This document shows, in pieces, positions 781 through 33,184 of a DNA stretch of 34,521 bases. The notes below the pieces were generated by a model. It was not told the DNA's origin, ran no database searches, and saw only the letters and a program-made list of their open reading frames with translations. The position numbers and the translations under genes are program-made. The stretch comes from an uncultured Lachnospiraceae bacterium (GTDB lineage: Bacteria; Bacillota; Clostridia; Lachnospirales; Lachnospiraceae), in NCBI GenBank assembly GCA_902788555.1, contig CADAKQ010000028.1:1-34521 (forward strand), written 5' to 3'. Positions within the stretch are counted from its first letter, which is position 1; each line of letters starts with the position of its first letter.

Positions 781-782
781 CA

Positions 783-2729: not shown

Positions 2730-2730
2730 C

Positions 2731-2759: not shown

Positions 2760-2821
2760 TCGATATAGTGTTTGTTTAATAGGCTAAATAAATTGAATTC
2801 AGATAAAAAAGGAGATTTGAT

Positions 2822-4309: not shown

Positions 4310-4329
4310 TTTTCGGTAAAAATTATATA

Positions 4330-4371: not shown

Positions 4372-4391
4372 ACTGAAGATAGTAATTAACT

Positions 4392-4427
4392 ATGCCATGG
4401 AAGTCTTAGGGTTTCTGTGGCATTTTT
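4392..4427 (+). terminator. Attenuator terminator of the queuosine operon leader
   Basis: ATGCCA (4392-4397) pairs with TGGCAT (4418-4423), with weaker inner pairing of GGAA with TTTC, followed by TTTTT (4423-4427). It sits 29 bases before the queD start. AGGACT (4369-4374), which overlaps the aptamer pseudoknot strand, can instead pair with AGTCTT (4402-4407) inside this hairpin, so ligand binding would favour termination. Confidence 0.65.
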
Positions 4428-4455
4428 ACTTTATTTTGAAAATATGGAGGAATGT

Positions 4456-4878: not shown

Positions 4879-4879
4879 A

Positions 4880-5548: not shown

Positions 5549-5549
5549 C

Positions 5550-6128: not shown

Positions 6129-6151
6129 AAGGGATATGAAAGGAAGAGAAT

Positions 6152-7793: not shown

Positions 7794-7803
7794 TGAATTA
7801 AAA

Positions 7804-7842
7804 CCCTATTAATAACATATAATGTCATTAATAGGGCTTTTT
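7804..7842 (+). terminator. Terminator of the queuosine/lipid kinase operon
   Basis: CCCTATTAAT (7804-7813) pairs perfectly with ATTAATAGGG (7827-7836), followed by CTTTTT. This marks the end of the queD-to-lipid-kinase transcription unit. Confidence 0.85.
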
Positions 7843-7843
7843 C

Positions 7844-7872
7844 TTTACTTTTTCCATAATTTGGCTTATAAT
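7844..7872 (+). promoter_or_regulatory. Sigma-A promoter for glmM
   Basis: TTTACT (7844-7849), 17 bp, TATAAT (7867-7872), immediately after the preceding terminator. Expected transcript start near 7879. Confidence 0.65.
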
Positions 7873-7910
7873 TAGTCTGATACTTTGTGTCGAAAGGAGT
7901 TTTTACAACA

Positions 7911-9266
7911 ATGGGTAAGTATTTTGGAACAGATGGCTTCAGGGGAGAGGCCAATGTTGATTTAACAGTTGAACACGCATTTAAGGTCGGAAGATATCTC
8001 GGATATTATTTTGGTAAAGATAAAAAAGGTGAGGACAGAGCCCGTGTAGTAATAGGTAAGGATACAAGAAGGTCAAGCTATATGTTTGAATATTCTCTTG
8101 TAGCAGGACTTACGGCAAGCGGTGCTGATGTATATCTTATGCACGTTACACCTACACCGAGCGTTTCATACATAGTGCGCTCAGATGAATTTGATTGCGG
8201 TATAATGATTTCAGCAAGCCATAATCCTTTTTACGATAATGGTATTAAGATTATAAACTCTCATGGTGCCAAGATTGAGGCAGAGGTTGAAGAGGAAATT
8301 GAAAAGTATATAGATGGAGAAATTCCGGAAATTCCGCTTGCTACCAAAGAGAAAATCGGAAGAACTACTGATTATTCGATGGGAAGAAACAGATATATAG
8401 GTTATCTTATGACACTTCCGACAAGAGCCTTTAAGAATCTTAAGGTCGGTCTTGACTGCTCTAACGGTGCGGCATCAACTATAGCGAAGGCCGTATTTGA
8501 TGCTCTTGGAGCAAAGACTTATGTTATAAGCAATCAGCCGGACGGAACCAATATAAATGACAACTGTGGTTCAACACACATAGAAAATCTTCAAAAGTAT
8601 GTCGTGGATAATGGACTTGATGTCGGCTTTGCATATGATGGAGATGCTGACAGATGTCTTGCTGTTGATGAGAAGGGTTCACTTGTTGATGGTGACCATA
8701 TTCTTTATATCTGTGGCAAATATTTAAGAGATAAGGGACATCTTGCAGGTAATACAGTTGTAACAACGGTTATGTCGAATCTTGGATTATATAAGGCATT
8801 TGATGCAGAAGGCATCAATTACGAAAAAACCACAGTCGGAGATAAATATGTATATGAGTGTATGATGGAAAACGGATATATGCTCGGCGGAGAACAAAGC
8901 GGACATATAATATTTGCTAAAAATGCAAGAACCGGAGATGGAGTTCTTACCTCACTCAAGCTCATGGAGGTCATGGTCGAAAATAAGTGCACTATGTCTG
9001 AGCTTTCAAGAGGACTTAAGATATATCCGCAGCTTTTGGTAAATGTAAAGGTAAAGAGCAAGCAGGAGGTAACCTCGGACAGTGATGTAATTGAGGCTGT
9101 AAAAAAAGTAGAGGAAAGGCTTGGAGATAACGGCAGAATTTTACTTAGAGAAAGCGGAACCGAGCCGCTTATTCGAGTTATGGCAGAGGCCGAAACTGAT
9201 GAGATTTGTAAAGAATGTGTGGATAAGGTTGTAAATGTTATTAAGGAAAAGGGTTACGAGGTGTAG
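7911..9266 (+). CDS. glmM: Phosphoglucosamine mutase
   Basis: 451 residues. It interconverts glucosamine-6-phosphate and glucosamine-1-phosphate for UDP-GlcNAc and peptidoglycan synthesis. Evidence: start KYFGTDGFRG; the phosphoserine loop ISASHNP (Ser about 103); the metal loop YDGDADR; the sugar-binding GGEQSGH; and the phosphate-binding RESGTEPLIRVM near the C-terminus. The start at 7911 is preferred to the GTG-region frame opening at 7887 because AAAGGAG (7893-7899) precedes it and MGKYFGTDG is the family's usual N-terminus. It is followed 16 bp later by the sugar transferase, so envelope precursor genes are grouped. Confidence 0.95.
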   Translation: MGKYFGTDGFRGEANVDLTVEHAFKVGRYLGYYFGKDKKGEDRARVVIGKDTRRSSYMFEYSLVAGLTASGADVYLMHVTPTPSVSYIVRSDEFDCGIMISASHNPFYDNGIKIINSHGAKIEAEVEEEIEKYIDGEIPEIPLATKEKIGRTTDYSMGRNRYIGYLMTLPTRAFKNLKVGLDCSNGAASTIAKAVFDALGAKTYVISNQPDGTNINDNCGSTHIENLQKYVVDNGLDVGFAYDGDADRCLAVDEKGSLVDGDHILYICGKYLRDKGHLAGNTVVTTVMSNLGLYKAFDAEGINYEKTTVGDKYVYECMMENGYMLGGEQSGHIIFAKNARTGDGVLTSLKLMEVMVENKCTMSELSRGLKIYPQLLVNVKVKSKQEVTSDSDVIEAVKKVEERLGDNGRILLRESGTEPLIRVMAEAETDEICKECVDKVVNVIKEKGYEV

Positions 9267-9282
9267 CCCTTAAAGGACTATT

Positions 9283-10815
9283 ATGAAAAGAATTCTCAGA
9301 AAACTTGAGACAACCATAATATTTGTTATTAAGACGGTGCTTTATTTTGCGTTGTTCTGGATTTTTTACGGAATGTATGCGAGGTCTAACTGGCAGCTTC
9401 TTAATCTTTCAAGAACGTCAGCAGTAACCATAGCGACCTATGTGGTTGTTTCATATATGTTTGCAAATATATACGGGCGGTATGATATAGGTAAAAGAAA
9501 GAGCAGACCGATAGTTCATTCGCTTTTTCTTGCTTCTATATTTACGGATATTATAACCTTGCTTATGCTTTCTATCATGAACACAAATGCAACCAACAAT
9601 AAGTCATTTGTTATTGAACAGCCGCTTTTGCTTGTACCTATACTTGTACTTCAGTATATAGTTATATGGATATTTGCATATGGCGGAAATAAGCTTTATT
9701 TTATAATATATGAGCCTGAAAAATGTGTAATTATTACTTCCTCGCAGAAAAGCTTGAATGAGGTTATACGAGGTATCAGAAAATATAAGCTTCAGTATAA
9801 AATAAATGTCATAGCAGATTATCATGATAAGGATTTAAAGAGATATATAACAGAAAATGAAACCATTTTTATCTATGATGTACCTATAAAAGAACGAACA
9901 GAGATAATTGAGTTTTGTTATCAGAATATGAAAAATGTATATTTCAATCCGGATATGCATGACGTTGTTGAGAAAAATTCTCACCATATTCTGCTGGATG
10001 ATTTATCCATGTATGGCAATTATTCTAAGGGCCTTACTCTTGAACAAAGAGCCGTAAAAAGAATAGAGGATGTTATAATATCCGTAATTGCACTTGTCAT
10101 AACCTCGCCTCTTTTGCTTATAGCTGCCATAAGTATCAAGATAGAGGATAAAGGAAGTATTATCTTCAAGCAGAACAGAGCAACAAGAAACGGAAAGATT
10201 TTTTCAATATACAAGCTTAGAACCATGAGAGAGGATGTTGATAATTATTCTGCTATTGAGGATGATGAGAGAGTTACAAAGGTTGGACGTGTATTGAGAA
10301 AATACAGAATTGATGAAATTCCGCAGTTCTTTAATGTATTAAAGGGAGATATGAGTGTTGTCGGTCCGAGACCGGAGATGCTTGCCAATATATTTAACTA
10401 TACGGATATACTTCCGGCATTCGAATACAGACTCAGAGTAAAGGCGGGAATTACCGGACATGCACAGATAGCCGGAAAATATAATACATCACCAAAGGAC
10501 AAGCTTATGCTTGATTTGATGTATATAGAAGAGTATAGTATGTGGTTGGATATAAAGCTTTTATTTCAGACACTTATTGTTTTACTTAAGCGTGACAGTA
10601 CGGAAGCCTTTAAAAATGATGATGAGCTTGTTTTTAATGAGTATAGTGAGGATGAAGCAATTAAATCCGACGTCATAGAAGAAGAGCTTAGTCATGAGGA
10701 GGAAAAGGAAGAGCAACACGCTGAAGATAAAAACGAGGCTAAGGAAGAGGTAAAATCAGAGGAAAAGAAACATAAAGAAGAACAAAAGAAAAAGCATAAA
10801 GGCGAACATAAATAA
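9283..10815 (+). CDS. Polyprenyl-phosphate sugar-1-phosphate transferase (bacterial sugar transferase family)
   Basis: 510 residues. Four N-terminal membrane segments (about 13-34, 43-62, 77-98, 112-134), a soluble Rossmann-like middle, a fifth hydrophobic segment (about 257-278), then the catalytic bacterial sugar transferase domain (KRIEDV, IFKQNRATRNGKIFSIYKLRTM, KYRIDEIPQFFNVLKGDMSVVGPRPE, VKAGITGHAQIAGKYNTS). It starts exopolysaccharide or cell-wall glycan assembly by moving a sugar phosphate onto undecaprenyl phosphate. After about residue 445 there is an unusual tail of roughly 60 residues made almost only of E, K, D and H (e.g. HEEEKEEQHAEDKNEAKEEV). The ribosome site is AAAGGA. Operon with rmlD. 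Confidence 0.88.
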   Translation: MKRILRKLETTIIFVIKTVLYFALFWIFYGMYARSNWQLLNLSRTSAVTIATYVVVSYMFANIYGRYDIGKRKSRPIVHSLFLASIFTDIITLLMLSIMNTNATNNKSFVIEQPLLLVPILVLQYIVIWIFAYGGNKLYFIIYEPEKCVIITSSQKSLNEVIRGIRKYKLQYKINVIADYHDKDLKRYITENETIFIYDVPIKERTEIIEFCYQNMKNVYFNPDMHDVVEKNSHHILLDDLSMYGNYSKGLTLEQRAVKRIEDVIISVIALVITSPLLLIAAISIKIEDKGSIIFKQNRATRNGKIFSIYKLRTMREDVDNYSAIEDDERVTKVGRVLRKYRIDEIPQFFNVLKGDMSVVGPRPEMLANIFNYTDILPAFEYRLRVKAGITGHAQIAGKYNTSPKDKLMLDLMYIEEYSMWLDIKLLFQTLIVLLKRDSTEAFKNDDELVFNEYSEDEAIKSDVIEEELSHEEEKEEQHAEDKNEAKEEVKSEEKKHKEEQKKKHKGEHK

Positions 10816-10829
10816 ATGGAGGAAGTATA

Positions 10830-11672
10830 ATGAAAAGAATATTGGTCACAGGCTGTAACGGACAGCTTGGAAGGGCAATCAATAAGGAATATGAAAAGGA
10901 AGAGGTTACATTAATCAATACAGATGTTGCAGAGCTTGATATAACAGATATAAAAGCGGTTTTGGATTTTATAACAGAGCAAAAGCCGGATGTTATTATA
11001 AACTGTGCAGCTCATACCAACGTTAATTTATGTGAGTCACAGTGGGATCTTGCCTATAAGATTAATGCGATAGGTCCAAGAAATTTAAGTATTGCCGCAA
11101 CACGTATCGGCGCTAAGCTTATTCATGTTTCTACGGACTATGTTTTTGATGGTTCGGCGGACACTCCGTATGATGAGTTTTCACCTGTTGCACCGCTTGG
11201 TGCTTACGGAAAGACCAAGCTTGAAGGAGAAAATTTTGTAAAGCAGTTTGCGGATAAGTTTTTCATTGTTAGAACAGCCTGGCTTTACGGAGACGGTAAA
11301 AATTTTGTCAGGACTATGCTTAGTCTGGGAAAAGAAAAAGGAGAGGTAGGAGTTGTTGCTGACCAGGTTGGCTCACCGACAAGTGCCAAGGAGCTAGCAA
11401 GGGCTATACATGTGTTGGAGCCTACAGATAATTATGGTATATTTCATGGAACCTGCGAAGGCTTTTGCTCATGGGCAGATTTTGCAGAAAAGATATTTGA
11501 GCTTGCAGGTATGGATGTAAAGGTCAATCGACTTACAACAGATGAATATCCGACTCCGGCAAAGAGACCTGCATACTCGGTACTTAACAATTATATGCTT
11601 TCGCTTACTACGGATTTTAAGTTCGCTTATTGGGAGGATGCACTGAAAGAGTATTTTAATGAAATGGCATAA
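10830..11672 (+). CDS. rfbD: dTDP-4-dehydrorhamnose reductase
   Basis: 280 residues. An extended short-chain dehydrogenase that makes dTDP-L-rhamnose with NADPH. Nucleotide loop VTGCNGQLG (6-14); TDYVFDG; catalytic Y126-x3-K130 in AYGKTKLEGE; C-terminal KRPAYSVL. GGAGG precedes the ATG and the gap to the sugar transferase is 14 bp, so both probably serve one surface polysaccharide. rmlA, rmlB and rmlC are not in the window. Confidence 0.93.
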   Translation: MKRILVTGCNGQLGRAINKEYEKEEVTLINTDVAELDITDIKAVLDFITEQKPDVIINCAAHTNVNLCESQWDLAYKINAIGPRNLSIAATRIGAKLIHVSTDYVFDGSADTPYDEFSPVAPLGAYGKTKLEGENFVKQFADKFFIVRTAWLYGDGKNFVRTMLSLGKEKGEVGVVADQVGSPTSAKELARAIHVLEPTDNYGIFHGTCEGFCSWADFAEKIFELAGMDVKVNRLTTDEYPTPAKRPAYSVLNNYMLSLTTDFKFAYWEDALKEYFNEMA

Positions 11673-11673
11673 A

Positions 11674-11725
11674 AAGAGGGGAAGGGGAGCCACTTGGTTA
11701 TAAGTGAACTCCCCTTCCTATTATG
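11674..11725. terminator. Bidirectional terminator between rfbD and the PilZ gene
   Basis: GGAAGGGGAG (11680-11689) pairs with CTCCCCTTCC (11709-11718), and CACTT (11691-11695) with AAGTG (11702-11706). On the minus strand the stem is followed by CCTCTTTTT, so it best serves the PilZ gene; on the plus strand the T-run comes 14 bases after the stem. Confidence 0.75.
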
Positions 11726-11739
11726 AGAAAGATTTTTTT

Positions 11740-12084
11740 CTAAAGGGTTTCACCATATTCTTCAAAAATATGGTCGTACATAGATGGAAGACCGATAAAC
11801 TCACAGCCGTATCTGTAACCGTAGTCTCCAATTTCAGTTCTATACAGAATTTTAACAACGGAAAGTATTATTTCATCTGTGTTATCAAATTCTATAGTTG
11901 CATTGAAATAATAATCGGTTGGCAGCTTGGTAACTGACATAAAACCGATACCTGCTCTTGATATATCAAAAACCTCAATCTCGGTATCAAGTGCCTCAAT
12001 TTTAATTCCGTCTTGTTTAAAAAGATTAGATACTTCCAATTTTATCTTGATAGGAAGTCGCTTATTTTTTCTTTTCTCTTCCAT
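11740..12084 (-). CDS. PilZ-domain c-di-GMP-binding protein
   Basis: 114 residues. The ATG at 12084 is chosen for its GGAGG site (12089-12093) rather than the one at 12114. A single PilZ domain: the arginine motif RKNKR (residues 4-8, RxxxR) and the DxSxxG motif DISRAGIGF bind cyclic di-GMP. No output domain is attached, so it presumably acts through a partner. A GGDEF/EAL protein encoded at 29.6-31.3 kb is a possible source of signal turnover, but nothing links the two beyond co-occurrence. Confidence 0.85.
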   Translation of the reverse strand: MEEKRKNKRLPIKIKLEVSNLFKQDGIKIEALDTEIEVFDISRAGIGFMSVTKLPTDYYFNATIEFDNTDEIILSVVKILYRTEIGDYGYRYGCEFIGLPSMYDHIFEEYGETL

Positions 12085-12196
12085 AAATACCTCCGTATTA
12101 TTAATTTCGCACAAATATTTTCTTAATTATAACAAATTTTTTGCAATTATGCTATATAAATATTTTATTTTTTATAAAAAGATTGTAATTATTCGG

Positions 12197-12224
12197 TTTA
12201 TTCTTTTGACTATTAGTTTATAAT
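12197..12224 (+). promoter_or_regulatory. Possible promoter for the 12252 gene
   Basis: TATAAT at 12219-12224 with TTTATT (12197-12202) 16 bp upstream. The better-looking TTGACT at 12206 is only 7 bp away and cannot be the -35 of this box. Confidence 0.35.
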
Positions 12225-12251
12225 ATAAATATCAGGAAAGGACAGGATGTT

Positions 12252-12980
12252 ATGAAGATTAGATTGAAGGTAACTCAGCCTAATCCGGAAAAGTTTATAG
12301 ATGAGGTAATAGACAGATATCATTTCGGTATAAACAGTAGGAGGGAATTGACTGAGATATACTATAAAATAATGGAAACGGCAGAGCCTTACGCAGAATA
12401 CAGAATTAATCAGAGAGTTACGGGAATAAGATTAATAGATGATAATCAGGCGGCAATAGTCAGTATGACCTTGGGAATAGGGCTTGATGATTTGAAGGAT
12501 TCCTATACAAAGAAAAGTGAGCTTGATAAGGCATATATGCTCGACTGCATAACAAATGAGCTTTTGATGAAAATGTATGTTGAGTTCAACAATATGTATG
12601 CCAGATATCACAGAAGATATGTAAAAAGATACGTTTTTATAGGAGATGAAATAAGTACAAATAAAATTCCCGAGCTTCTAAATGAGATAAAAGAAAAGGA
12701 TTGTATCGCACAGGAAAAAAGGTCAGATGAAGATAAGAAAATTGAGATGACCGCATTTAATGAAGAAATCGGAAGCTTGGACTTGGATAAGCAGGAAAAG
12801 GATATACACAATAAGGAAATATCCGCCAATGAATACGGAGTTTTATCTCCTGCAAAGAGTGTTGTATTTTATGCGATTCTGACAGAGAATCCCAATAAGA
12901 TCTGTGAAGGAATATGTGAGAATTGCAACAATAAAGCTTGTGAAAATAATCCCCTTTATGAGGAAGAGGAAAATGAATAA
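12252..12980 (+). CDS. Protein resembling the cobalamin-dependent methionine synthase activation domain
   Basis: 242 residues. The sequence has the helical middle TNELLMKMYVEFNNMYARYHRR, the strand-turn EYGVLSPAKSVVFYAIL and a C-terminal cysteine cluster CEGICENCNNKAC. Small free-standing MetH-activation-like proteins of Clostridia show the same order: a helical region, a P-x-KS-V segment and a C-terminal CxxC...C tail. They may bind SAM or help reactivate corrinoid proteins. A charged insert (about residues 148-195, rich in K, E and D) separates the two parts. AAAGGA lies before the ATG. Assignment is by pattern memory only. Confidence 0.45.
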   Translation: MKIRLKVTQPNPEKFIDEVIDRYHFGINSRRELTEIYYKIMETAEPYAEYRINQRVTGIRLIDDNQAAIVSMTLGIGLDDLKDSYTKKSELDKAYMLDCITNELLMKMYVEFNNMYARYHRRYVKRYVFIGDEISTNKIPELLNEIKEKDCIAQEKRSDEDKKIEMTAFNEEIGSLDLDKQEKDIHNKEISANEYGVLSPAKSVVFYAILTENPNKICEGICENCNNKACENNPLYEEEENE

Positions 12981-12988
12981 AATTTTTA

Positions 12989-13017
12989 TTTACATTGACT
13001 TTTTAACATTGTATAAT
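12989..13017 (+). promoter_or_regulatory. Sigma-A promoter of the potABCD operon
   Basis: TTTACA (12989-12994), 17 bp, TATAAT (13012-13017). Leader of about 40 bases to the GTG start of potA. Confidence 0.7.
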
Positions 13018-13065
13018 GTTTGCATTATGTGTGAATAATATACGTTTTTACAAGGAGGAAAAAAA

Positions 13066-14124
13066 GTGAGCGAGGTTTTGATTGAATTAAAGGGACTAAG
13101 CAAAAACTTCGGTGAACAACAGGTACTTAAGGGTATAGATTTGAATATTCGTGAAAATGAATTCCTTACACTTCTTGGTCCTTCCGGCTGTGGTAAGACA
13201 ACTACTTTAAGAATTATTGCCGGTTTTGAGGAACCGAGTCACGGTGAGGTTATCTTTGACGGAGTGGATATAGCTAAGATTCCTTCTTATAAAAGAGAGG
13301 TTAATACTGTCTTTCAGAAGTATTCACTTTTTCCTTTTTTGAATGTTTATGACAATGTTGCTTTTGGTTTAAAGATAAAAAAGATGGATAAAAAGCTTAT
13401 AGAGCATAAGGTAAAGAGAATGCTCAAGCTGGTTGGACTTGAAGGCTTTGATAAACGTGATGTTACCAAGCTGTCCGGAGGTCAGCAGCAAAGAGTAGCC
13501 ATAGCCAGAGCTCTGGTAAACGAGCCTAAGGTGCTCCTTTTAGATGAGCCTTTAGGTGCGCTCGATGCAAAGCTTCGTAAGGAGATGCAGATTGAACTTA
13601 AAAAGATTCAAAAGGAAGTCGGTATTACATTTATATTTGTAACACATGATCAGGAGGAAGCACTTTCCATGTCGGATACCGTTGTGGTTATGCATGAGGG
13701 TGTAATCCAGCAGGTGGGTACGCCTGAGGACATATATAATGAGCCGGAAAACAGATTTGTCGCAAGCTTTATCGGTGAGTCCAATATAATTGAGGCAACT
13801 ATGATAAAAGACTGTCTTGTAGCCTTTGACGATTATGAATTTGAATGTGTAGACAAAGGCTTTAAGAATAATGAGGCTGTTGAGGTTGTTATACGTCCTG
13901 AGGATATAGACATAGTTAAGCCTAAGGAGGCAAAGATAAAGGGTAAGGTTTCATCAATCATATTTAAGGGCGTACATCATGAGATAGTTGTTAAAACCAA
14001 GCACAGGGATTATCTTATACATACTACCGATTATTTCAAACCGGGACTTGAGGTGGGACTTAAGTTCGGACCGGATGACATCCATGTAATGTACCGTATG
14101 GATTGGGAGAACGGAGGAAACTAA
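13066..14124 (+). CDS. potA: Spermidine/putrescine ABC transporter ATP-binding protein
   Basis: 352 residues from a GTG start preceded by AAGGAGG. Walker [11 protein letters not shown] (38-47), Q-loop region VFQKYSLFP, signature [14 protein letters not shown], Walker B VLLLDEP, H-loop FVTHDQEEA, and a C-terminal TOBE domain (VIRPEDI). It powers polyamine import together with PotB, PotC and PotD. The stop codon overlaps the potB start (TAATG). Confidence 0.95.
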
Positions 14125-14951
14125 TGAAGCATTTTCGCAAGATGATTTGGCCATATATAATATGGGCAGGTGTTATAGTGGTTCTTCCGCTTCTTATGAT
14201 TATACTTTACTCAGTTACAAAGGGTGGAAATGAACTTTTAAATATACAGTTTACATTTGATAATTTTAAAAGAATGACTGAGCCGATATATGTGGATGTT
14301 TTTGTCAAATCCTTTAAGCTTGGAATAATATCTGTTATAATTTGTCTTTTGGTGGGATATACCCTTGCATATTTAATTACTTCCTTTAGTGAAAAGGTTC
14401 AAAGTGTTTTAATTCTTGTCGTCACAATTCCGATGTGGATTAACACATTGCTTAGAACCTATGCATGGATTTCTCTTTTATCAGACAATGGTCTTATTAA
14501 TACTGTGCTTGTAAAGCTTGGATTTGAACCAATAAATATGATGTATACAGATTTTGCGGTTGTTCTCGGTCTTGTAAGTGACCTGCTTCCGTTTATGGTT
14601 ATACCAATATATACCTCCCTCAGCAAGATGGATCATTCGCTTATAGAGGCGGCTCATGATTTAGGAGCAAATAAGTTCAAGACCTTCTGGAGAGTGACCT
14701 TTAAGCTTTCCATACCGGGAGTTTTAAATGGAGTAATTATGACCTTCCTTCTTTCTATCTCAACCTTCGTCATACCGAAGCTTTTGGGAGGAGGACAGTA
14801 TACACTTATCGGTAACCTTATCGAGAATCAGTTTATCTCGATAGGTGATTGGAATTTCGGAAGTGCCATATCGGTTATACTTGCATTTATTATACTTATG
14901 TCAATCACTTTTATGAAGAAGATTGACAAGGATGAGATAGAGGAGGAGTAG
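14124..14951 (+). CDS. potB: Spermidine/putrescine ABC transporter permease
   Basis: 275 residues with six membrane segments and the permease EAA loop EAAHDLGANKFKTFWRV, which docks on PotA. The ATG at 14124 shares its A with the potA stop and has GGAGG 9 bp upstream; the frame opening at 14103 lies inside potA and is not used. Confidence 0.93.
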   Translation: MKHFRKMIWPYIIWAGVIVVLPLLMIILYSVTKGGNELLNIQFTFDNFKRMTEPIYVDVFVKSFKLGIISVIICLLVGYTLAYLITSFSEKVQSVLILVVTIPMWINTLLRTYAWISLLSDNGLINTVLVKLGFEPINMMYTDFAVVLGLVSDLLPFMVIPIYTSLSKMDHSLIEAAHDLGANKFKTFWRVTFKLSIPGVLNGVIMTFLLSISTFVIPKLLGGGQYTLIGNLIENQFISIGDWNFGSAISVILAFIILMSITFMKKIDKDEIEEE

Positions 14952-14957
14952 CAGCTT

Positions 14958-15776
14958 ATGAAAAAGAAAAAAATAGGCGCTATCCTTTACATAGCACTTT
15001 GTTTTATATTTTTATACCTGCCGATAGTTGTTACGATGTTTTATTCATTTAATTCATCCAAATCGCTTACAAAGTTTCAGAGCTTTTCTTTAAGATGGTA
15101 TCAAAATCTTTTTGAAAGCAGCGACATAATGAGTGCGGTATGGGTTTCGCTTTCCATAGCAGTCCTTGCAACTATCATATCAACAGTGTTGGGTACACTT
15201 ACCTCTATTGGACTTTCTAAAAATAAAAAGGTTTTAAAGGAACTTGTGGTAAATGTAAACAATGTTCCGATTATGAATCCTGATATTGTTACGGCTATAG
15301 GTCTTATGATTCTTTTTTCCGCATTTCATCTGGAAAAAGGTTATCTGACGATGCTCCTTGCTCATATTGCGTTTTGTACACCTTACGTAATAACGAGTGT
15401 CTATCCAAAGGTAAGAACTATGGACCCAAACCTTGCCAATGCGGCTATGGATCTTGGGGCTACACCGTTTCAGGCACTTACTAAGGTTATTCTTCCGATG
15501 CTTAAGGAAGGAATCTTTGCAGGTGTGCTTTTGGCATTTACAATGTCCTTTGATGACTTTGTAATTTCATATTTTGTAACGGGTAACGGTGTATCCAATA
15601 TTTCGATTGTCGTTTATAATATGACAAAGAGAACCAATCCGACCATTAATGCGCTTTCGACAATAGTTATTTTGGTTATTGCGATTACGCTTATTTTGGT
15701 AAATGTTATCCCTGCTATAGCAGGAAGAAAGAAAAAAACTGATACTGATCAACAAAAGGAGGAGATAATAAGTTGA
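14958..15776 (+). CDS. potC: Spermidine/putrescine ABC transporter permease
   Basis: 272 residues, six membrane segments, N-terminal LYLPIVVTMFYSFNSS typical of PotC, and the EAA-type loop NAAMDLGATPFQALTKVILP. It pairs with PotB to form the channel. It starts 6 bp after potB with GAGGAG overlapping the potB stop, and its stop overlaps the potD start. Confidence 0.93.
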   Translation: MKKKKIGAILYIALCFIFLYLPIVVTMFYSFNSSKSLTKFQSFSLRWYQNLFESSDIMSAVWVSLSIAVLATIISTVLGTLTSIGLSKNKKVLKELVVNVNNVPIMNPDIVTAIGLMILFSAFHLEKGYLTMLLAHIAFCTPYVITSVYPKVRTMDPNLANAAMDLGATPFQALTKVILPMLKEGIFAGVLLAFTMSFDDFVISYFVTGNGVSNISIVVYNMTKRTNPTINALSTIVILVIAITLILVNVIPAIAGRKKKTDTDQQKEEIIS

Positions 15777-16840
15777 AAAAAACGTCTATCATGAAAAAAA
15801 TCACCGGTGCAGTTATGGTGATGACTCTTAGTATGAGCCTTTTAACAGGCTGTGGAAGTAAGAGTGACAAGACCTTAAAGGTCTATAATGCAGGAGAGTA
15901 TATTGACACTGACCTTATTCATGATTTTGAAAAGGAATTTGATTGTAAGGTGGTTTACGAAACCTTTGATTCCAACGAATCTATGTACACAAAGGTACAG
16001 AGTGGTGAGAAATATGATGTAATCATTCCATCTGATTATATGATTGAAAGACTTATCAGGGAGGATAAGCTTCAGAAAATCGACTGGTCACTTATACCAA
16101 ATGCAGATGGTCTTGATGAAAATGTCTTAGGACTTGCCTGTGACCCTGATAATGAGTATTCGGTACCTTATTTCTATGGTAATGTTGGTATTCTTTACGA
16201 TAAAACAGTAGTTGATGAGGCTGATTTAAAGGATGGCTGGGAAATTCTTAGAAATGAAAAGTATAAGGGTATGCTTTATATGTATGATTCAGAGAGAGAT
16301 TCCTTCATGATAGCTTTAAAAGCACTTGGATATTCTATGAATACAACTGACAAAAAGGAAATTGACGAAGCTTACGAATGGCTTGCAAATCAGAGAGATA
16401 CCATGGAGCCTGTTTATGCAGGTGATGATGTTATCGACAATATGATTTCCGGAAATAAGGCAATGGCCATAGTTTATTCGGGTGATGCAACTTATATTAT
16501 GTCCGAAAATGAAAATCTCGCTTTCTTCGCTCCTGAAGAGGGTACGAATATATGGAATGATGCAATGATTATTACCAAGGATTGCACCGATACTAAGCTT
16601 GCACATGAGTTCATTAATTTCATGCTTGAGCCTGACAACGCATATGCCAATACTGCTGAGGTTGGTTATACTTCACCGATTATAGAAGCCCGTGAAAAGG
16701 CAGCAGCGGATGACTACGCAGATATTGATGCGTACATTCCTGATATGACACGTGCTAATGATGAGGTGTTCAGATATCAGGATTCCGAAACCAAGGCATA
16801 CTTCGCTGAACTCTGGACTAAGATTAAGGCTGCGAATTAG
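15773..16840 (+). CDS. potD: Spermidine/putrescine-binding lipoprotein
   Basis: 355 residues. The best start is a TTG at 15773 overlapping the potC stop (TTGA), with GGAGGAG about 8-10 bp upstream; the ATG at 15791 would lie about 27 bp from that site. Signal peptide with lipobox LLTGC, so the mature protein begins at a lipidated Cys around residue 27. Polyamine-binding fold (extracellular solute-binding family 1): LKVYNAGEYID, DVIIPSDYMIERLI, VPYFYGNVGILYD, AIVYSGDATYI. It captures polyamines outside the membrane for PotBC. Confidence 0.93.
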   Translation: MKKTSIMKKITGAVMVMTLSMSLLTGCGSKSDKTLKVYNAGEYIDTDLIHDFEKEFDCKVVYETFDSNESMYTKVQSGEKYDVIIPSDYMIERLIREDKLQKIDWSLIPNADGLDENVLGLACDPDNEYSVPYFYGNVGILYDKTVVDEADLKDGWEILRNEKYKGMLYMYDSERDSFMIALKALGYSMNTTDKKEIDEAYEWLANQRDTMEPVYAGDDVIDNMISGNKAMAIVYSGDATYIMSENENLAFFAPEEGTNIWNDAMIITKDCTDTKLAHEFINFMLEPDNAYANTAEVGYTSPIIEAREKAAADDYADIDAYIPDMTRANDEVFRYQDSETKAYFAELWTKIKAAN

Positions 16841-16843
16841 GGT

Positions 16844-17030
16844 GTTTGATGGCGCTGATACAGCCTGTATATAAGGACAGATTTGAGGTTTTTGAATAGC
16901 CTTAAAAAACAAAAAAGTACTTATCACAGCTCGCTTGCGCTAACGCTGTTGATAAGTACTTTTTTGATTATTCAAGGCTGCTTTTTGTTTATGACTGTCC
17001 TTATATACAGGCTGTATCCCGCCATCAAAC
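16844..17030. repeat. 187-bp nested palindrome with terminator core
   Basis: Outer arms: 11 bp (16844-16854 with 17020-17030) and a perfect 23-bp pair (16858-16880 with 16995-17017). The inner core is a 16-bp pair (16911-16926 with 16950-16965) that ends in T's on both strands, so it can terminate potD and the convergent hslO. Loop: CAGC, TCGCTTGCGCTAAC, GCTG. A second small stem GACATG-CTGCG-CATGTC (17031-17046), followed by T-rich sequence, adjoins it. The nested structure is far longer than a terminator needs and suggests a mobile palindromic repeat around or within a terminator. Confidence 0.85.
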
Positions 17031-17121
17031 GACATGCTGCGCATGTCATATTTTTCTTTTTACATACTGTTTTAATTACTTAAAGAATTTAAAATGAGTC
17101 AACAAAAACCGTTTCAAAAAT

Positions 17122-17979
17122 TTATTTTCTCTCTAAGAATGTTAGTAGTTCATCTGTAGAAAATATATACTTGGTGTGGCAGAAGTCGCATACCACTTCG
17201 ATAGGTTGGTTGTCTTCTATCATGGAAGCAATTTCTTTTTTTCCGAGACTGATAACTGCGGCTTCAACACGCTCCTTACTGCAATCGCAGACATAGGCAC
17301 ATGGAAGAGTATCGGTTATTTCGATGGTGTAATCCTCAAATATTTTGCCGATTATTTCTTCTATAGTAAGCCCTTCCTCAAGAAGCTTTGTGAAAGAGAA
17401 GTCCTTGAGTCGTTCCTCAAGCATGGATATGGTGCTTTCCTCCGCAAATGGCATAAGCTGGATGATGAAACCGCCTGCTGTTTTCACAGAGGTATCATCA
17501 TTTAAGGTCACGCCTAGTGCCACAGATGAAGGGATTTGCTCGCTGGTTGCAAAATAATATGTCAAGTCTTCGGCTATCTCACTTGATACCAGATGAGTCT
17601 GACCGATATACGGTTCTTTAAGACCAATGTCTTTTATAACACTCATTACACCAAGGTCAACAGCCTTTGCAACGTCCTTTGCAGGAAGCATTACATCCGG
17701 TTCGCTGACATATCCCTTTACCTCACCTTTGGTGTTGGCTGTGACTAAAAGCCCCTTTAGTGGCCCCTGACATTGTATTCTTATGGTAAGCTTATCATCG
17801 TCATTTTTGCACATTGCACCCATCATGACTCCGCCCATAAGTAGTCTTCCCAATGCGTTTGTTGCTACCGGGCTCGTATTATGCGTGATTCTCGCTTTTT
17901 CAACTGTGTCTGTGGCAACGCAGGCAAAAAATCTGACCTGATTTTCTACCGCCATACCTCTTATAATATAATCTGACAT
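17122..17979 (-). CDS. hslO: Redox-regulated chaperone Hsp33
   Basis: 285 residues. Hsp33 holds unfolded proteins during oxidative stress and is switched on when its zinc-bound cysteines form disulfides. The four cysteines are present: CDC in VCDCSKERVEAA and CDFC in VVCDFCHTKYIF near the C-terminus. The N-terminal DYIIRGMA, GALMGG-like GRLLMGGVMMGAM and the QGPLKG segment are typical. A GAGG site precedes the ATG on the minus strand. It lies downstream of the methyltransferase at 18078-18890 with about 100 bp between them. Confidence 0.95.
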   Translation of the reverse strand: MSDYIIRGMAVENQVRFFACVATDTVEKARITHNTSPVATNALGRLLMGGVMMGAMCKNDDDKLTIRIQCQGPLKGLLVTANTKGEVKGYVSEPDVMLPAKDVAKAVDLGVMSVIKDIGLKEPYIGQTHLVSSEIAEDLTYYFATSEQIPSSVALGVTLNDDTSVKTAGGFIIQLMPFAEESTISMLEERLKDFSFTKLLEEGLTIEEIIGKIFEDYTIEITDTLPCAYVCDCSKERVEAAVISLGKKEIASMIEDNQPIEVVCDFCHTKYIFSTDELLTFLERK

Positions 17980-18077
17980 TGTTTTTACCTCTTTTATGTT
18001 TTATCTCTTTTATGCTTTTTGTTTGCTGTATATTTTATTTATAGTTATGCTTAAAATAATCGAATTGCCATTATATA

Positions 18078-18890
18078 TTATTTTCCACACTCTCTTGCGA
18101 TTACATATATCCTTTCGCCGCTTTCATCTGCGGGATTTTTGGTAAATGCATCATAAGCCGTTATATATTCAAGTCCTGATTTTTCAATCAATTCTTTAAT
18201 CTCTGATAGAGTATATCCCTTTTGCAGATGGAGTTCCTCGTATTTTCTATATAAATTGCTGTTGACTGAATTCCTTTGGGAGCTTTTTTTATCAACATCA
18301 GTATTAATCGGTTCTTCTTTTTCCCTGATAAAAATACTAAGACTAAGCTCATTTATATTATTTTCAGTATCATAATAATTATCCCATATAAAGCTTATAT
18401 CGTCTCTGTCTTCGGCGATGGTTGCATCTGCAACTACATCCTTGTAGTAATGTCTGGTATTGAAGTCAAATATAAATATGCCCTTAGGATCAAGGTAGTT
18501 ATTCACAAGCCGAAAAACCGTAAGCAATTCGTCGCTGTCTGTTATATAATTTATACTGTCGCATAAACTGATGCATGCAGCTACAGTACCATAAAGCTCA
18601 AACTCTCTCATATCCTGACACAGATATAGGGAAGAAGAATTGTTTTTGGATCTCTTGCTTTCTGCAATATCAAGCATTGAATCAGAATTATCTATACCTA
18701 TCATATCATAGCCTGTTTTTGCAAGACGTTCGGTTATGTTTCCGGTGCCGCAGCCAAGCTCGGCAATTATGCCATCCTTTATGCCGTATTCAATTAGCAG
18801 CTTATGCAGATATGAAAACCATTCATCATATGGGATATTATCCATAAGCTCATCATATACTGCAGCAAAATCAGAATATACTTCGGACAT
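18078..18890 (-). CDS. Class I SAM-dependent methyltransferase
   Basis: 270 residues. Motif I is IIAELGCGTGNITERLAKTG (about 37-56), motif II acidic GIDNSDSML, and later ACISLCDSINYIT and IFIFDFNTRHYY. The order and the N-terminal FAAVYDELMDNIPYDEW fit the small-molecule methyltransferase group often found in Firmicutes. Substrate unknown. GGAG lies 8 bp before the ATG. It may share transcription with hslO. Confidence 0.85.
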   Translation of the reverse strand: MSEVYSDFAAVYDELMDNIPYDEWFSYLHKLLIEYGIKDGIIAELGCGTGNITERLAKTGYDMIGIDNSDSMLDIAESKRSKNNSSSLYLCQDMREFELYGTVAACISLCDSINYITDSDELLTVFRLVNNYLDPKGIFIFDFNTRHYYKDVVADATIAEDRDDISFIWDNYYDTENNINELSLSIFIREKEEPINTDVDKKSSQRNSVNSNLYRKYEELHLQKGYTLSEIKELIEKSGLEYITAYDAFTKNPADESGERIYVIARECGK

Positions 18891-19068
18891 ATTTTTCTCC
18901 TTAATAATTACGACTGATGAATTAAGTATGCAGTTGATGCTATATTAATAAGCTAAATTGTTAACACGCCATCAATTATATGTGAAATTATAATTTATTG
19001 CAATATATTAAAGGATAGAATAATTAGAAAAATTAAAATGTTATGAAAAATAGGTGGTTGGAAAATTA

Positions 19069-19097
19069 TTGTAATAAATGGAGGGTTATATTATAAT
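19069..19097 (+). promoter_or_regulatory. Sigma-A promoter for the DUF4869/ATPase pair
   Basis: TTGTAA (19069-19074), 17 bp, TATAAT (19092-19097). The start would be near 19104, about 37 bases before the ATG at 19141. Confidence 0.65.
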
Positions 19098-19140
19098 CAT
19101 TATATTAAGATTTTAAAATAGTTTAATGGATGGTGACAAT

Positions 19141-19587
19141 ATGTTGAATATTTTTTTTGGCGATATGACTGATAATGATAAATATCTTGAAAATCCGGAA
19201 GTTTATTTTGATAATACTTATGAAGACAGATGGTTTGATGATGAAGAAGTTAAAGAAATGGTAAAAGATATAGATAATTCTAATGTAGTTAGTTCACATT
19301 TGATTGAAAGCCCTGTTTTTGGCGGAATGCCTGTAAGGGATTTGTCAGGCGGAGTAAAAACTTTAATTCTGATGAAATTTGATAACGAGCATATAGTTAA
19401 TGCTTCATACTGCGGAGACAACTGCGCAAAGTGGATTTTGCGTATTGCAAAAGAAAAAGACTTAACTATTAGATTGGGATATTTGATGGATTTTGGAGAT
19501 GGATTAATTAATGTAAAGGTAGCTAATTCAGGAAAAAAGTTTGATAATTGTAAAGATTTATTTCTTGAGGCTATTGATTATTTATAG
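19141..19587 (+). CDS. DUF4869-like protein of unknown function
   Basis: 148 residues from the ATG at 19141, with GGTGA just upstream; the ATG at 19126 lacks a clear ribosome site. It opens MLNIFFGDM and carries VYFDNTYEDRW, LIESPVFGGMPVRDLSGGVKTLILMKFD and YCGDNCAKWILRIA, a pattern I associate with the DUF4869 family of Firmicutes. No catalytic motif is evident and the protein is acidic. The next gene, 11 bp on, is a P-loop ATPase, and the two look like one transcription unit with more A/T-rich codons than their neighbours. Function unknown. Confidence 0.6.
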   Translation: MLNIFFGDMTDNDKYLENPEVYFDNTYEDRWFDDEEVKEMVKDIDNSNVVSSHLIESPVFGGMPVRDLSGGVKTLILMKFDNEHIVNASYCGDNCAKWILRIAKEKDLTIRLGYLMDFGDGLINVKVANSGKKFDNCKDLFLEAIDYL

Positions 19588-19598
19588 GCGGTGTTGAT

Positions 19599-20597
19599 AT
19601 GAAAGGTTCTTATGAAGTAACAGTATATAATAAGGATATTCATTATAAGTTTACAATAAAGCGTAATATTACGGTAATCCGTGGTGATAGTGCCACAGGA
19701 AAAACTAAATTGTTTAACTTAATAAGGGATTATGATGATGTTGGCAATAGCAGTGGAATAATATTACAATGTCAGAAAAGATGTACTGTTTTGTCAGGAG
19801 CAAATTGGAAAGCGGCATTATCAGGTATAAATGATAGTATTGTATTTATAGATGAACAATCTTCATTTATAAATAGTGTTGAATTTTCTGATACAATTAA
19901 GTGTTCAAATAATTATTTTGTAATCATAACCAGAGAAAAATTAGCAATGTTGCCATACAGCGTAGAAGAGGTTTATGGTATATATAGTTCCGGGAAATAT
20001 ACTAATATTAAGAATGAATTTTCTGATAAAGAAAAAATATTTAATGTATTTTATCCTATTTATGAAAATAAAAGTATAAACAGTCTTGATGATTTTGATT
20101 TAATAATAACAGAAGATTCAAATTCAGGTTTTGAGTTTTTTGGTTCTTATAATAAAGAATGTTTAAGTGCTAACGGAAAATCCAATATAAAGGATTTGAT
20201 TAAATCAAATATAAACAAAAGAGTACTTGTAATAGCTGACGGAGCAGCTTTTGGTCCGGAAATGTTAGATGTGGATAAGTTGTTAGAGAAAATGAAAGAT
20301 ATGAGTATTTTTCTTCCGGAATCTTTTGAATGGTTAATATTAAAGACCGGTGATATCAAAATATCTGAGCTTAATGATATTTTGCAAAATCCGGAAGAAT
20401 ATATAGAGAGTACACAGTACTTTAGTTGGGAGAATTTCTTTTCTTTTTTGTTGCATGAACATACTATAGGAAGTGTGCAGGCATATACAAAAAGTAAATT
20501 AAATCCATACTATTTAGGGAAGGGCATGAAAAAGAAGATAGAGAATGTAATTAAACAATTTGGCTTGGATTTTAATGATATTAAAAATGATAAGTGA
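19599..20597 (+). CDS. P-loop ATPase partner of the DUF4869-like protein
   Basis: 332 residues, GGCGGTG ribosome site. Walker A GDSATGKTKL (about 29-38); Walker B SIVFIDEQ (about 83-90); then NYFVIITREK, which may be a sensor or switch strand. After the ATPase part come DLIITEDSNSGFEFF (about 169-183) and RVLVIADGAAFGPEM (about 207-221). Two acidic-residue-tipped strands at this distance recall a Toprim-like domain as in OLD or DUF4435 proteins, but that is an inference. The C-terminus is helical and basic. Such proteins are sometimes mislabelled translation initiation factor 2. Function unknown; the pair could be regulatory or defensive. Confidence 0.55.
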   Translation: MKGSYEVTVYNKDIHYKFTIKRNITVIRGDSATGKTKLFNLIRDYDDVGNSSGIILQCQKRCTVLSGANWKAALSGINDSIVFIDEQSSFINSVEFSDTIKCSNNYFVIITREKLAMLPYSVEEVYGIYSSGKYTNIKNEFSDKEKIFNVFYPIYENKSINSLDDFDLIITEDSNSGFEFFGSYNKECLSANGKSNIKDLIKSNINKRVLVIADGAAFGPEMLDVDKLLEKMKDMSIFLPESFEWLILKTGDIKISELNDILQNPEEYIESTQYFSWENFFSFLLHEHTIGSVQAYTKSKLNPYYLGKGMKKKIENVIKQFGLDFNDIKNDK

Positions 20598-21204: not shown

Positions 21205-22578
21205 ATGGCTAAGGATACTAAAGACAAGAAACTTACAGTAGCAGGATATAAGGGAATTTCAACAGAAAATCTGGAGAGCTTTTCTAAAGATTTTAATAAA
21301 GACCGCGCCAATCTTATCGCAGCAAATGCGGCAGTAAAAAGCGGAGTACTTGAGGCGGCGGCAGATTACAGTAGGATTGGAGAACTTCCTATGAGCTTTT
21401 CCGTTGATTTAAAGCAGGGAAAGATTACTAATCAAAAAGCAAGCGGACGTTGTTGGCTTTTTTCTGCATTAAATACCATGCGTTTTGAGATAATACACAA
21501 GTATAATCTGGATAATTTTGAATTGTCGCAGAATTACCTTTTTTTCTATGATAAATTGGAAAAGGCTAATTTCTATCTTGAAAGCATTTTAAAGACTTTG
21601 GATGAGCCTGTGGACGGAAGACTTTATTCGTTTATAAATGCTGCACCATTAGGTGACGGCGGGCAGTGGGATATGTTTGCCAATCTTGTGGAAAAGTATG
21701 GAGTTGTTCCTAAGGAAAGCTATGATGATGCGGCAAGCTCCACAAGCTCAAGATGGTTCGATCAGTATCTTACTACAAAGCTTAGAGAGGATGCATATAA
21801 GTTAAGAACATTGTCAAAAGAGGGTAAGAAGAAGTCTGAACTTGAAAAGGAAAAGACAAAAATGATTTCGGAGTTTTATCGTATGCTTTGTATCTCTTTG
21901 GGTGAGCCGCCTAAAAAGATAGATTTCACACTTCGTGACAAGGACGACAAGGTATATCAGGACTTTGGAATTACACCGCAGGAATTTTATAAAAAGTATG
22001 TGGGTATGAAGCTTACGGATTTTGTGAGTATAATAAATGCACCTACCGAGGACAAACCATTTGGAAAGCTGTATACGGTTAAATATTTAGGAAATGTAGC
22101 TGAAGGTAAGCCGATTACATATCTTAACCTTAAAATGAAAGAGATCAAGAAAGCAGTTATTGCACAGCTTAAGGATGGACATCCTGTATGGTTTGGCTCG
22201 GACTGCAGCAAGTATTCACTTCGTAAAGAAGGAGTATTTGATAAGAAGGCTGCCAATCTCGAACAGCTTTATGATGTAAAATTTGGCATGGATAAGAGTG
22301 AGAGCCTTATCTATGGTGACAGTGCCATGAATCATGCCATGGTAATACTCGGTGTAAATATAAATGAAGCCGGTAAGCCGGATAGATGGCGTATAGAAAA
22401 CAGCTGGGGCAAGGATGCAGGAAAAGATGGATATTATGTGGCATCCGATGAGTGGTTTGATGACTATGTATATCAGGTGGTTGTAAATAAAAAATATCTA
22501 AGCAAGGATACAAAAGAGCTTTTAAACCAGCCGCTTATAGAACTTGAGCCTTGGGATCCTTTTGGAACGTTGGCTTAG
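21205..22578 (+). CDS. pepC: Aminopeptidase C (bleomycin hydrolase family C1B)
   Basis: 457 residues, normal length. A cytoplasmic cysteine aminopeptidase, usually a hexameric barrel. The triad is visible: Cys83 in KASGRCWLFSALNTMR, His in SAMNHAMVILGVN and Asn in RIENSWGKD. GGAGG lies before the ATG. It is placed between two paralogous genes of unknown function, and is followed by a long perfect palindrome. Confidence 0.95.
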   Translation: MAKDTKDKKLTVAGYKGISTENLESFSKDFNKDRANLIAANAAVKSGVLEAAADYSRIGELPMSFSVDLKQGKITNQKASGRCWLFSALNTMRFEIIHKYNLDNFELSQNYLFFYDKLEKANFYLESILKTLDEPVDGRLYSFINAAPLGDGGQWDMFANLVEKYGVVPKESYDDAASSTSSRWFDQYLTTKLREDAYKLRTLSKEGKKKSELEKEKTKMISEFYRMLCISLGEPPKKIDFTLRDKDDKVYQDFGITPQEFYKKYVGMKLTDFVSIINAPTEDKPFGKLYTVKYLGNVAEGKPITYLNLKMKEIKKAVIAQLKDGHPVWFGSDCSKYSLRKEGVFDKKAANLEQLYDVKFGMDKSESLIYGDSAMNHAMVILGVNINEAGKPDRWRIENSWGKDAGKDGYYVASDEWFDDYVYQVVVNKKYLSKDTKELLNQPLIELEPWDPFGTLA

Positions 22579-22595
22579 TTCGTCATTTTTTCTTA

Positions 22596-22691
22596 GAGAT
22601 GGTTATATAGGATATATTTTATGATGTACGCATAGCTCGCTGTCGCTCACGCTATGCTTAACATTAAAAATATATCCTATATAACCATCTC
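22596..22691. repeat. 96-bp palindrome with perfect 25-bp arms
   Basis: 22596-22620 and 22667-22691 are perfect inverse complements (25 bp). The centre holds a second stem GCATAGC (22630-22636) with GCTATGC (22651-22657) closing the loop TCGCTGTCGCTCAC. The arms share no sequence with the palindrome at 16844, yet the loop matches it at 11 of 14 positions. There is no long T-run after the right arm. It lies in the 171-bp gap between pepC and the zinc-ribbon gene. Confidence 0.85.
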
Positions 22692-22749
22692 ATAGGAAAC
22701 ACCGTTGATATAAGAATAAATTGAGAAACAAGATTTAGGAGGAAAAAGT

Positions 22750-23259
22750 ATGACAGATGTTAAATTCGGAACATTAGCGCCTATTAGGTATATGGCTCCT
22801 GATTTTGACAACACGATGGTTTCATATAAGGTGTATGGAACAATATTAATTGAACAAGATGTAGAGGACGCATTTAAAGAGAGGATTAAAAGCGAAGTCT
22901 TGTCGATGATTCCTATAGTGTTCTCCGAATTTCATGCAAGAGAAGTAAAATGTCTGGAGCTTCCTGCTATGTGCTCTGAGATGAGTAAGAAATTGACTGA
23001 AAGACTTAGGGAGATTGACCGCAAGTGTAATGTCAACGTTGGCGGTGTAGTAATGGATGAAGAATCCAAGAAGATAATCGAAGAAAAACAAAGAGCAAAA
23101 ATTATTGCAGATAATCCTGCCATAGCACAGGTGGAGCAGATAAGAGCTATGCAGGCAGCAGGAAGCGTAAATCGTCCGAAGTTTTGTCCGAATTGCGGTA
23201 CACCGGTTGGACCGACAGGTAAATTCTGTGGAAACTGTGGCAGCCCGCTTGGCGTTTAA
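22750..23259 (+). CDS. Paralog of the 20654 gene with C-terminal zinc ribbon
   Basis: 169 residues, AGGAGG site. Residues 1-115 match the 20654 gene; residues 110-140 form a charged helix (EESKKIIEEKQRAKIIADNP); the last 30 residues are a zinc ribbon with two CxxC pairs (FCPNCGTPVGP, FCGNCGSPLG). Zinc ribbons of this kind follow SPFH-like 'virion core protein' domains in many Firmicutes. Function unknown; the ribbon probably mediates protein contact. Confidence 0.6.
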   Translation: MTDVKFGTLAPIRYMAPDFDNTMVSYKVYGTILIEQDVEDAFKERIKSEVLSMIPIVFSEFHAREVKCLELPAMCSEMSKKLTERLREIDRKCNVNVGGVVMDEESKKIIEEKQRAKIIADNPAIAQVEQIRAMQAAGSVNRPKFCPNCGTPVGPTGKFCGNCGSPLGV

Positions 23260-32243: not shown

Positions 32244-32383
32244 CATTTGCCGTCTTTTTGTGGTATAACAACCGCAAGCGGTCGTTATCGCATTAGCTCG
32301 CCAAATAAATGCTTCGCATTTGCTTGGCTCACTTTATTGTGGCAAACTCGGGTTATAGCACACATTATATAAAATTGCAAATG
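32244..32383. repeat. 140-bp nested inverted repeat
   Basis: CATTTGC (32244-32250) pairs with GCAAATG (32377-32383), and GTGGTATAAC (32260-32269) with GTTATAGCAC (32352-32361, one mismatch). Inner hairpins are ATAAC-ACCGC/GCGGT-GTTAT (32265-32288) and CCAA-AATGC/GCATT-TTGG (32301-32327). The centre starts AGCTCGC and ends GCTCAC, as do the loops of the palindromes at 16844 and 22596, but a small hairpin is inserted between. Confidence 0.65.
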
Positions 32384-32906: not shown

Positions 32907-33101
32907 TTTCATATATCTTTATATATTTCCTTAAAATTCTTTAATACTTTATTTGTTCAATTTTTATCCCTGATTAAATTACATATAAATTCATATAGTT
33001 TGTTATAACTTTTAGAAAATTGGCACAGTAAATGGCACAGTGGATATTTGCTAAGTGTCAGGGAGAAGTTTTGTTACAGCAAAAAATTTATATGTGATAT
33101 G
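32907..33101. other. Gene-free AT-rich stretch with a 9-bp direct repeat
   Basis: No supported gene. TGGCACAGT occurs at 33021-33029 and 33033-33041, three bases apart. Closely spaced repeats of this kind occur around integrase attachment or arm sites, but nothing confirms it here. Confidence 0.35.
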
Positions 33102-33184
33102 CTTTTTGTTTATTTTATATAATTATATCTAAAAAAATAAACAAAAAGTGTTTATAAAATAATATTTTTTTAATATAATAAACA
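33102..33184 (+). promoter_or_regulatory. Operator array and promoter of the XRE-ImmA gene
   Basis: A perfect 15-bp inverted repeat (33102-33116 with 33134-33148). Within it and beyond, the half-site TGTTTAT occurs four times in alternating direction: 33107-33113 (+), 33137-33143 (-), 33149-33155 (+), 33178-33184 (-). TTTATA (33151-33156), 17 bp, TATAAT (33174-33179) is a promoter fully inside the second inverted pair, so a bound repressor would block it. Autoregulation by the XRE domain downstream is inferred. Confidence 0.65.

Follow-up and report, generated by a model that had tools for sequence, protein, structure and literature searches.

Dispersed palindromes in bacteria are normally recognised through conserved stems or ends, and the uptake tags of Neisseria are placed in terminators. 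Noncoding palindromic repeats of the mitochondrial and plastid DNA of Volvox carteri, as outlined in PMC2670323, form hairpins with variable stems and a loop that is often TAAA/TTTA, and are often inserted within one another. Template switching in quasi-palindromes, in the outline provided by PMC8604942 and PMC7202029, equalises the arms and inverts the spacer. The hairpins described below, from a Lachnospiraceae genus, have an apical tip in common and outer arms that mostly differ from locus to locus.

The stretch of DNA analysed (the window) is a whole contig, C28, of 34,521 bases, from a genome of 2.70 Mb labelled G000; the genomes of the genus that were compared, 37 with G000, are labelled G0xx, and contigs and loci are designated Cx and Lxxx. 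Two long hairpins of the window, 22596 and 16844 (Table 1), carry a common loop, TCGCTNNCGCTNAC, on unrelated arms. Both loops were as the initial annotation had given them, and the pattern TCGCTNNCGCTNACGCT fits the two with 0 mismatches. Folding gave z = -11.2 for the 22596 palindrome and z = -15.1 for nt 16841–17040, which holds the nested palindrome of 16844. The inner hairpin of the latter has the same kind of loop but a divergent tip, matching the tip covariance model (R1) weakly at 26.7 bits. The 22596 palindrome is present in the G012 and G030 orthologues, while that of G027 is without the right arm. The third repeat cited in the initial annotation, at 32244, bears only a resemblance to the motif; the stem-extension score around its AGCTCGC...GCTCAC centre is 0, compared to 23 and 32 for the other two palindromes, and R1 finds no match there at E <= 0.1. 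As nothing pairs outside its centre, it was rejected as a member of the family. Small hairpins like GACATGCTGCGCATGTC, seen by eye, recur directly outside the nested palindromes of C9:128976 and C13:60705, and partly in G001. The window further contains an AT-rich inverted repeat with 36-nt arms (nt 33081–33169), upstream of a gene encoding HTH and IrrE-like peptidase domains, and no Rfam 15 structured RNA was matched within it at gathering score.

Table 1. Coordinates of the palindromes, their parts and the neighbouring genes in the window.
Feature	Position	Strand	Details
Long palindrome (22596)	22588..22699	+	inverted repeat, 49-nt arms, 80% complementary, 14 nt between
Conserved tip module of 22596	22622..22666	+	45 nt; 65.9 bits to model R1
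Loop of 22596 hairpin	22637..22650	+	14 nt, TCGCTGTCGCTCAC
Peptidase C1-like gene, beside 22596	21205..22578		
Zinc-ribbon domain gene, beside 22596	22750..23259		
Outer nested palindrome (16844)	16844..17030	+	self-inverse match 16844-17030
Inner hairpin of 16844 element	16915..16961	+	loop TCGCTTGCGCTAAC at 16931-16944; T-run afterwards
Small hairpin	17031..17047	+	GACATGCTGCGCATGTC; directly outside 16844 outer palindrome
Solute-binding protein gene, flanking 16844	15773..16840	+	convergent with Hsp33 gene
Hsp33 gene, flanking 16844	17122..17979	-	convergent with solute-binding protein gene
Centre of third repeat (32244)	32295..32332	+	short hairpin within AGCTCGC...GCTCAC

With up to three mismatches allowed, the loop pattern AGCTCGCTNNCGCTNACGCT occurs at 20 places in G000 and its reversed control at none, and by eye 17 of the 20 lie within long hairpins (L013, L016 and L020 do not). 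A 400-kb sample of G000 (G+C 0.368) contains 18 hairpins at score >=16 and 4 at >=24, against 8 and 0 in a sample of the same size from the tip-free congener G019 (G+C 0.425); the Markov-randomised copies, one per sample, hold none at >=16. A chance origin was rejected on these grounds, and the initial annotation's description of a conserved loop on variable stems holds genome-wide, far above chance.

The conserved unit is larger than had been proposed. The loop is indeed shared, but as the centre of a 45-nt tip that also includes an internal loop. Fifty-three tips (of 54 listed, an incomplete G027 copy being left out) align gap-free over 45 nt. Six outer and seven apical pairs, parted by a 2x3 internal loop (AC / TTA), carry a 14-nt loop, TCGCTNNCGCTCAC. 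The fifth outer pair is non-standard in 30 of the 53 rows, so that the internal loop may be larger. In this alignment 93.3% of cells are paired, and since its rows were picked by motif the conservation within it comes partly from row selection. Double-sided changes in the tip pairs number 87, compared to 32.1 +/- 3.5 after shuffling (0 of 500 shuffles reach 87), and slid registers never yield more than 4; further pair types show no excess (15 vs 15.0 in shuffles). Besides the type A loop TCGCTNNCGCTCAC there are a type B, CACGYTNNCRCTTAAC-like, and a third, shorter one. Long hairpins of G000 at L232:15897, L239:13966 and L242:7000 have loops that share a TGCATAAATGC-like sequence, perhaps another apex family.

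Beyond the tip the arms are locus-specific at most loci and well paired with small bulges, the stem continuing for a median of 20 base pairs (range 4–39, n = 44), often after a one-base bulge; read ungapped, just 8 of the 17 top-scoring tips have >=11 pairs within the first 20 positions of the arms. Among the 17 tips of G000 that reach >=58 bits (136 pairs), identity is 0.904 at 12 loop positions and 0.357 at the two central N positions, and falls from 0.382 at the inner 8 arm positions to 0.265 at the outer 12, for which shuffling gives 0.260. On average, then, the outer arms show no relationship, in agreement with the first reading of the two window palindromes. Certain arm classes nevertheless recur, e.g. 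in three copies with AATAATAAGAGGTATCGA-like arms; A and B loops are both carried by the same arm class, and outer ends TGTGAC...GTCACA return at some loci. A palindrome of the TGTGAC..GGGACAGGCACCTTGTCACA-like type occurs tip-free (L231:16445-16515) and as the outer arms at L002, L008, L012 and L014. The right flank of L004 (C9 of G000) holds another palindromic repeat, about 100 bp long and with a AACTCGCTNCGCTCARACAGTT-like loop; among the matches listed it is found at many places in G012, G027 and G030 and at a few in G013. Two G030 loci, C15:33431-33587 (L050) and C5:63449-63541 (L038), have head-to-tail partial copies (left arm and tip, about 70 nt apart) adjoining the hairpin.

The family is confined to part of the genus. 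At E <= 0.01, R1 finds 43 tips in G000, 70 in G012, 58 in G027, 53 in G030, 24 in G010 and 12 in G001, and a single one in G009 and in G013, while the remaining 29 of the 37 genomes have none; up to 150 candidates were scored per genome, so that counts may be low. The 45-nt tip is therefore common to 43–70 hairpins per genome in the four richest species. At E <= 0.1, the 47 rows of G000 reduce to 44 places once the second strand of three places is removed. The pattern CTCRCTNNCGCTCACG was counted over the 37 genus genomes (G000 14, G012 14, G027 17, G030 16, G001 and G010 one each, absent from the remainder). Under stricter filters, which still find 34 in G000, no tip was detected in 149 family members belonging to other genera. 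A looser loop pattern, run on 397 family genomes, had one or two matches in each of 33 genomes outside the genus, a number close to that for its reversed control (30 genomes), and a wider spread beyond the genus was therefore rejected. A scan of database contigs returned at least 109 stretches; among the matches listed, hairpin scores above 12 were reached only in RUG10816, RUG14549, RGIG4472 and RGIG3620, which are Lachnospiraceae MAGs, and two of the record titles mention roe deer omasum and goat rumen. Viral contigs gave no match to a strict pattern, and plasmids, queried with nt 1–20000 of the window, gave just three weak or short matches, in ordinary genes.

The orientation of the tips was counted at 43 places in G000 with a simple ORF caller, leaving out C31:30460, a repeat of C11:70487 near contig ends. 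Both neighbours are on the tip strand at 13 places and both on the other strand at 14, while 10 places are convergent, 2 divergent and 4 unassigned; strand preference is absent, yet few tips lie between divergent genes. The same caller flags 4 of the 44 places as inside an ORF, which are taken as spurious or contig-edge calls. By eye, several copies at gene ends finish in T-runs, among them 16844 and the G012 orthologue of L018; no T-run follows 22596, and some copies, such as L002, lie just 5' of a ribosome-binding site.

Change between orthologues was followed in 22 comparisons, which are not independent; the loop pattern served to find 13 of them, and to pick the G000 member in every case. 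Several redundant pairs, the G027 orthologue of 22596 that is without its right arm, and the L035 pairs, whose flanks showed non-orthology, are left out of this set. Among 610 arm pairs compared, 61 are changed on both sides, 49 of these from one Watson-Crick pair to another, where about 10 double changes would be expected if the arms were independent at a divergence of 0.13. One-sided changes number 36, with G-U retained in 8. Many G-U intermediates would be expected under selection for RNA pairing, but not if one arm is copied onto the other; the low G-U share, compared informally, counts against an RNA-level role.

The loop differs at 20 of 308 positions (0.065) in the full 22 pairs, half of the arm rate (0.13), and selection on it was at first suspected. 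Such selection found no support once the nine orthologous pairs found through flanks or the whole region, and not through the loop, were examined. In these the loop differs at 15/126 positions (0.119), the arms at 29/321 (0.090), the tip stem at 21/279 (0.075) and the flanks, omitting the pieces that differ by >=30% (2 of 18), at 468/3718 (0.126). Since the loop rate there is like that of arms and flanks, no selection on the loop is visible once it has been inserted. A set of 27 comparisons, in which some flanks are misaligned and the non-orthologous L035 is included, gave 0.074 for the loop, 29/837 (0.035) for the tip stem, 0.123 and 0.208 for the arms and 0.167 for the flanks. The tip stem being slower than the flanks, and the loop slower than the arms in the 22 pairs, some constraint on the tip is possible, and the tip stem may be weakly held by selection.

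Comparison of orthologous loci shows mirrored arm changes, flips of the centre and differing apices on shared arms. At L008 the centre is inverted in G012, as the reverse complement of the G000 centre, and the left half has been lost from G030. The L001 loop is inverted in G030, and the tip hairpin is missing there in G009 and G013. At L012 the outer arms are common to G000 and G012 while the inner hairpins differ, and the right flank is rearranged in G000. The arms of L018 in G000 are paired at 39 of 39 positions; the outer part of these arms is an inverted copy of the left flank, after which the loop and right arm occur a second time. In G012 the same locus is a plain terminator with a single left flank. 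The direction of this change is ambiguous, because a deletion between the two loop copies would also yield the G012 state. One orthologous gene end has the same kind of loop on different arms in G000/G012, G030 and G010/G001, another hairpin in G027 and another kind of sequence in G013 and G009. At the 16844 locus, G030 has an extra hairpin nested in the left arm, with a GTACACGCA...TGCTTAGCAC frame and another loop, which is missing in G000, G012 and G027; in G001 the outer frame is kept and the inner arms are different. At L001, L004 and L005 the palindrome as a whole is there in some genomes and missing from others. At L005, a stretch of ~160 nt including the hairpin is found in G000, G010 and G030, is missing in G012, G027, G013 and G009, and has a different short stretch in its place in G001. 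Filled and empty sites, compared by eye, showed no consistent target-site duplication. The sequence between paired copies at G012:C4 / G027:C1 was considered as a transposon and rejected, since its ORFs (by eye, in the G027 region) read as a two-component pair.

The hairpins make up a clade-specific family in a single Lachnospiraceae genus, of palindromes that are dispersed and often nested; in our tentative reading, at close to even chances, the arms arise by template switching and the tip spreads between palindromes. Replication template-switching at the hairpin would both create the arms and maintain their match, with one arm copied onto the other, the centre flipped, or flank copied inverted. 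We infer that the arms are kept alike at the DNA level because template switching, as outlined in PMC8604942, equalises arms and inverts spacers. The tip, or tip and inner arm, would be placed at the apex of pre-existing palindromes, such as terminators or repeats of the TGTGAC...GTCACA type, either through template switching between palindromes or by a putative enzyme acting in trans; spreading of the tip to the apices of existing palindromes is suggested less firmly than the matching of the arms. The element would act on DNA and not as a strand-specific RNA, to which the even orientation and the divergence of the loop in the nine pairs both point, although some copies may double as terminators. 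In a bolder form, which is rather unlikely, the tip would be a minimal mobile unit that homes to palindrome apices, host terminators and repeats becoming its arms, and nesting would result from repeated apex insertion and fold-back copying of flanks. If true, tip homing would represent a class of bacterial mobile DNA defined by a hairpin tip and not by its ends.

A more conventional account, also rather unlikely on present evidence, is that of an ordinary MITE-like palindrome, in which the whole hairpin is mobile, the tip is needed for transposition and the arms drift with compensatory change. The presence or absence of whole palindromes at L001, L004 and L005 also fits a mobile unit that includes the arms, as do the arms common to several loci (the three AATAATAAGAGGTATCGA-like copies among them), the weak similarity of the inner eight arm positions and the slow change of the tip stems. 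The arms of orthologues, however, differ by only ~0.13, yet outer arms from separate loci are no more alike than shuffled sequence over the 136 pairs, so that the constant terminal inverted repeats of a MITE are lacking, and drift would also have to account for an arm class that bears both A and B loops and for the shared outer arms with different tips of L012. Movement as REP elements by a RAYT (Y1) transposase would suit short, mostly intergenic palindromes present in dozens of copies per genome in a single clade, but it is very improbable. The Y1_Tnp domain (PF01797) has no match in G000, G012, G027, G030 and G010 and one in G001 (these six MAGs are 75–97% complete, so that a copy may have been missed), although it is present in 8 of the 37 congeners, and no mobility enzyme was found by this search. 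A GTAG/CGTC tag within 6 nt of the stem base, on either strand, occurs at only 2 of the 44 hairpins of G000, and it is the tip stem that is conserved and not a stem for the family as a whole, the outer arms being at shuffled level. Membership of the REP/RAYT elements is therefore not supported.

An action at the RNA level, as a terminator or mRNA stabiliser with a protein or RNase binding its loop, is improbable but less so than the REP reading. Copies with T-runs at gene ends (16844, and the G012 orthologue of L018), the excess of convergent over divergent places and the slower loop of the full 22 pairs would agree with it. Tips are as often antisense as sense, though, G-U was kept in few of the one-sided arm changes, the loop diverges like arms and flanks where pairs were not found through it, and copies such as 22596 and L002 are placed without a T-run or just before a ribosome-binding site. 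For the same reasons of orientation and divergence, the initial annotation's suggestion that the loop is at present a selected recognition site for a protein or RNase is not supported; it is possible that the tip was recognised during past spreading. The proposal of an uptake-like tag placed in terminators, after the manner of Neisseria, can draw on a motif repeated inside hairpins. It fits poorly with the missing T-run of 22596 and the position of L002, with just 43–70 copies in the richest genomes, with a motif in the loop and not in the arms, and with its changes at orthologous sites, and is hardly credible. Among the readings put forward at the outset, a transposition-like mark comes nearest.

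No description of a tip-conserved family, nor any bacterial counterpart of nested palindromes with a shared loop, was found among the titles and abstract openings that searches of an open-access library returned. The hairpin repeats of sponge mitochondria, as sketched in PMC2800124, similarly invade intergenic DNA, but they have conserved stems and differing loops, whereas the tip family has a conserved apex and differing outer stems. REP and REPIN sequences with their RAYTs are likewise small, mostly intergenic palindromes with many copies per genome (in the summary of PMC3116915), and their families are marked by a terminal GTAG/CGTC tag (in that of PMC3733652); the tip family differs in its conserved apex, in the absence of such tags and in the absence of a Y1 gene from the richest genomes. 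Template switching, as outlined in PMC8604942 and PMC7202029, resembles the changes seen here in making arms alike and inverting the spacer, but was shown for single short inverted repeats, while in the present case its target would be many dispersed hairpins that have one tip in common. A conserved apex with chance-level outer arms, mirrored change, flips and apex exchange provides natural material for asking whether replication template-switching can spread and remodel chromosomal palindromes, and close relatives with and without the family make the question of mechanism testable by comparison. This may be a little-known way in which small palindromes spread and keep their halves matched. 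The closest analogue is the nested palindromes of Volvox organelle DNA, which in the account of PMC2670323 are also noncoding hairpins with stems of varied length, a shared loop and nesting, and this way of working recurs here in the nested hairpin of G030 and in the shared tips. The Volvox repeats belong to organelle DNA, have loops of 3–5 nt and possess consensus sequences (PMC2670323, in outline), whereas the tip family resides in a bacterial chromosome and has a 45-nt tip with a 14-nt loop and an internal loop, and dissimilar outer arms. The likeness meant here is one of mode, and it raises the question of whether a single mechanism underlies nested palindromes in organelles and in bacteria.
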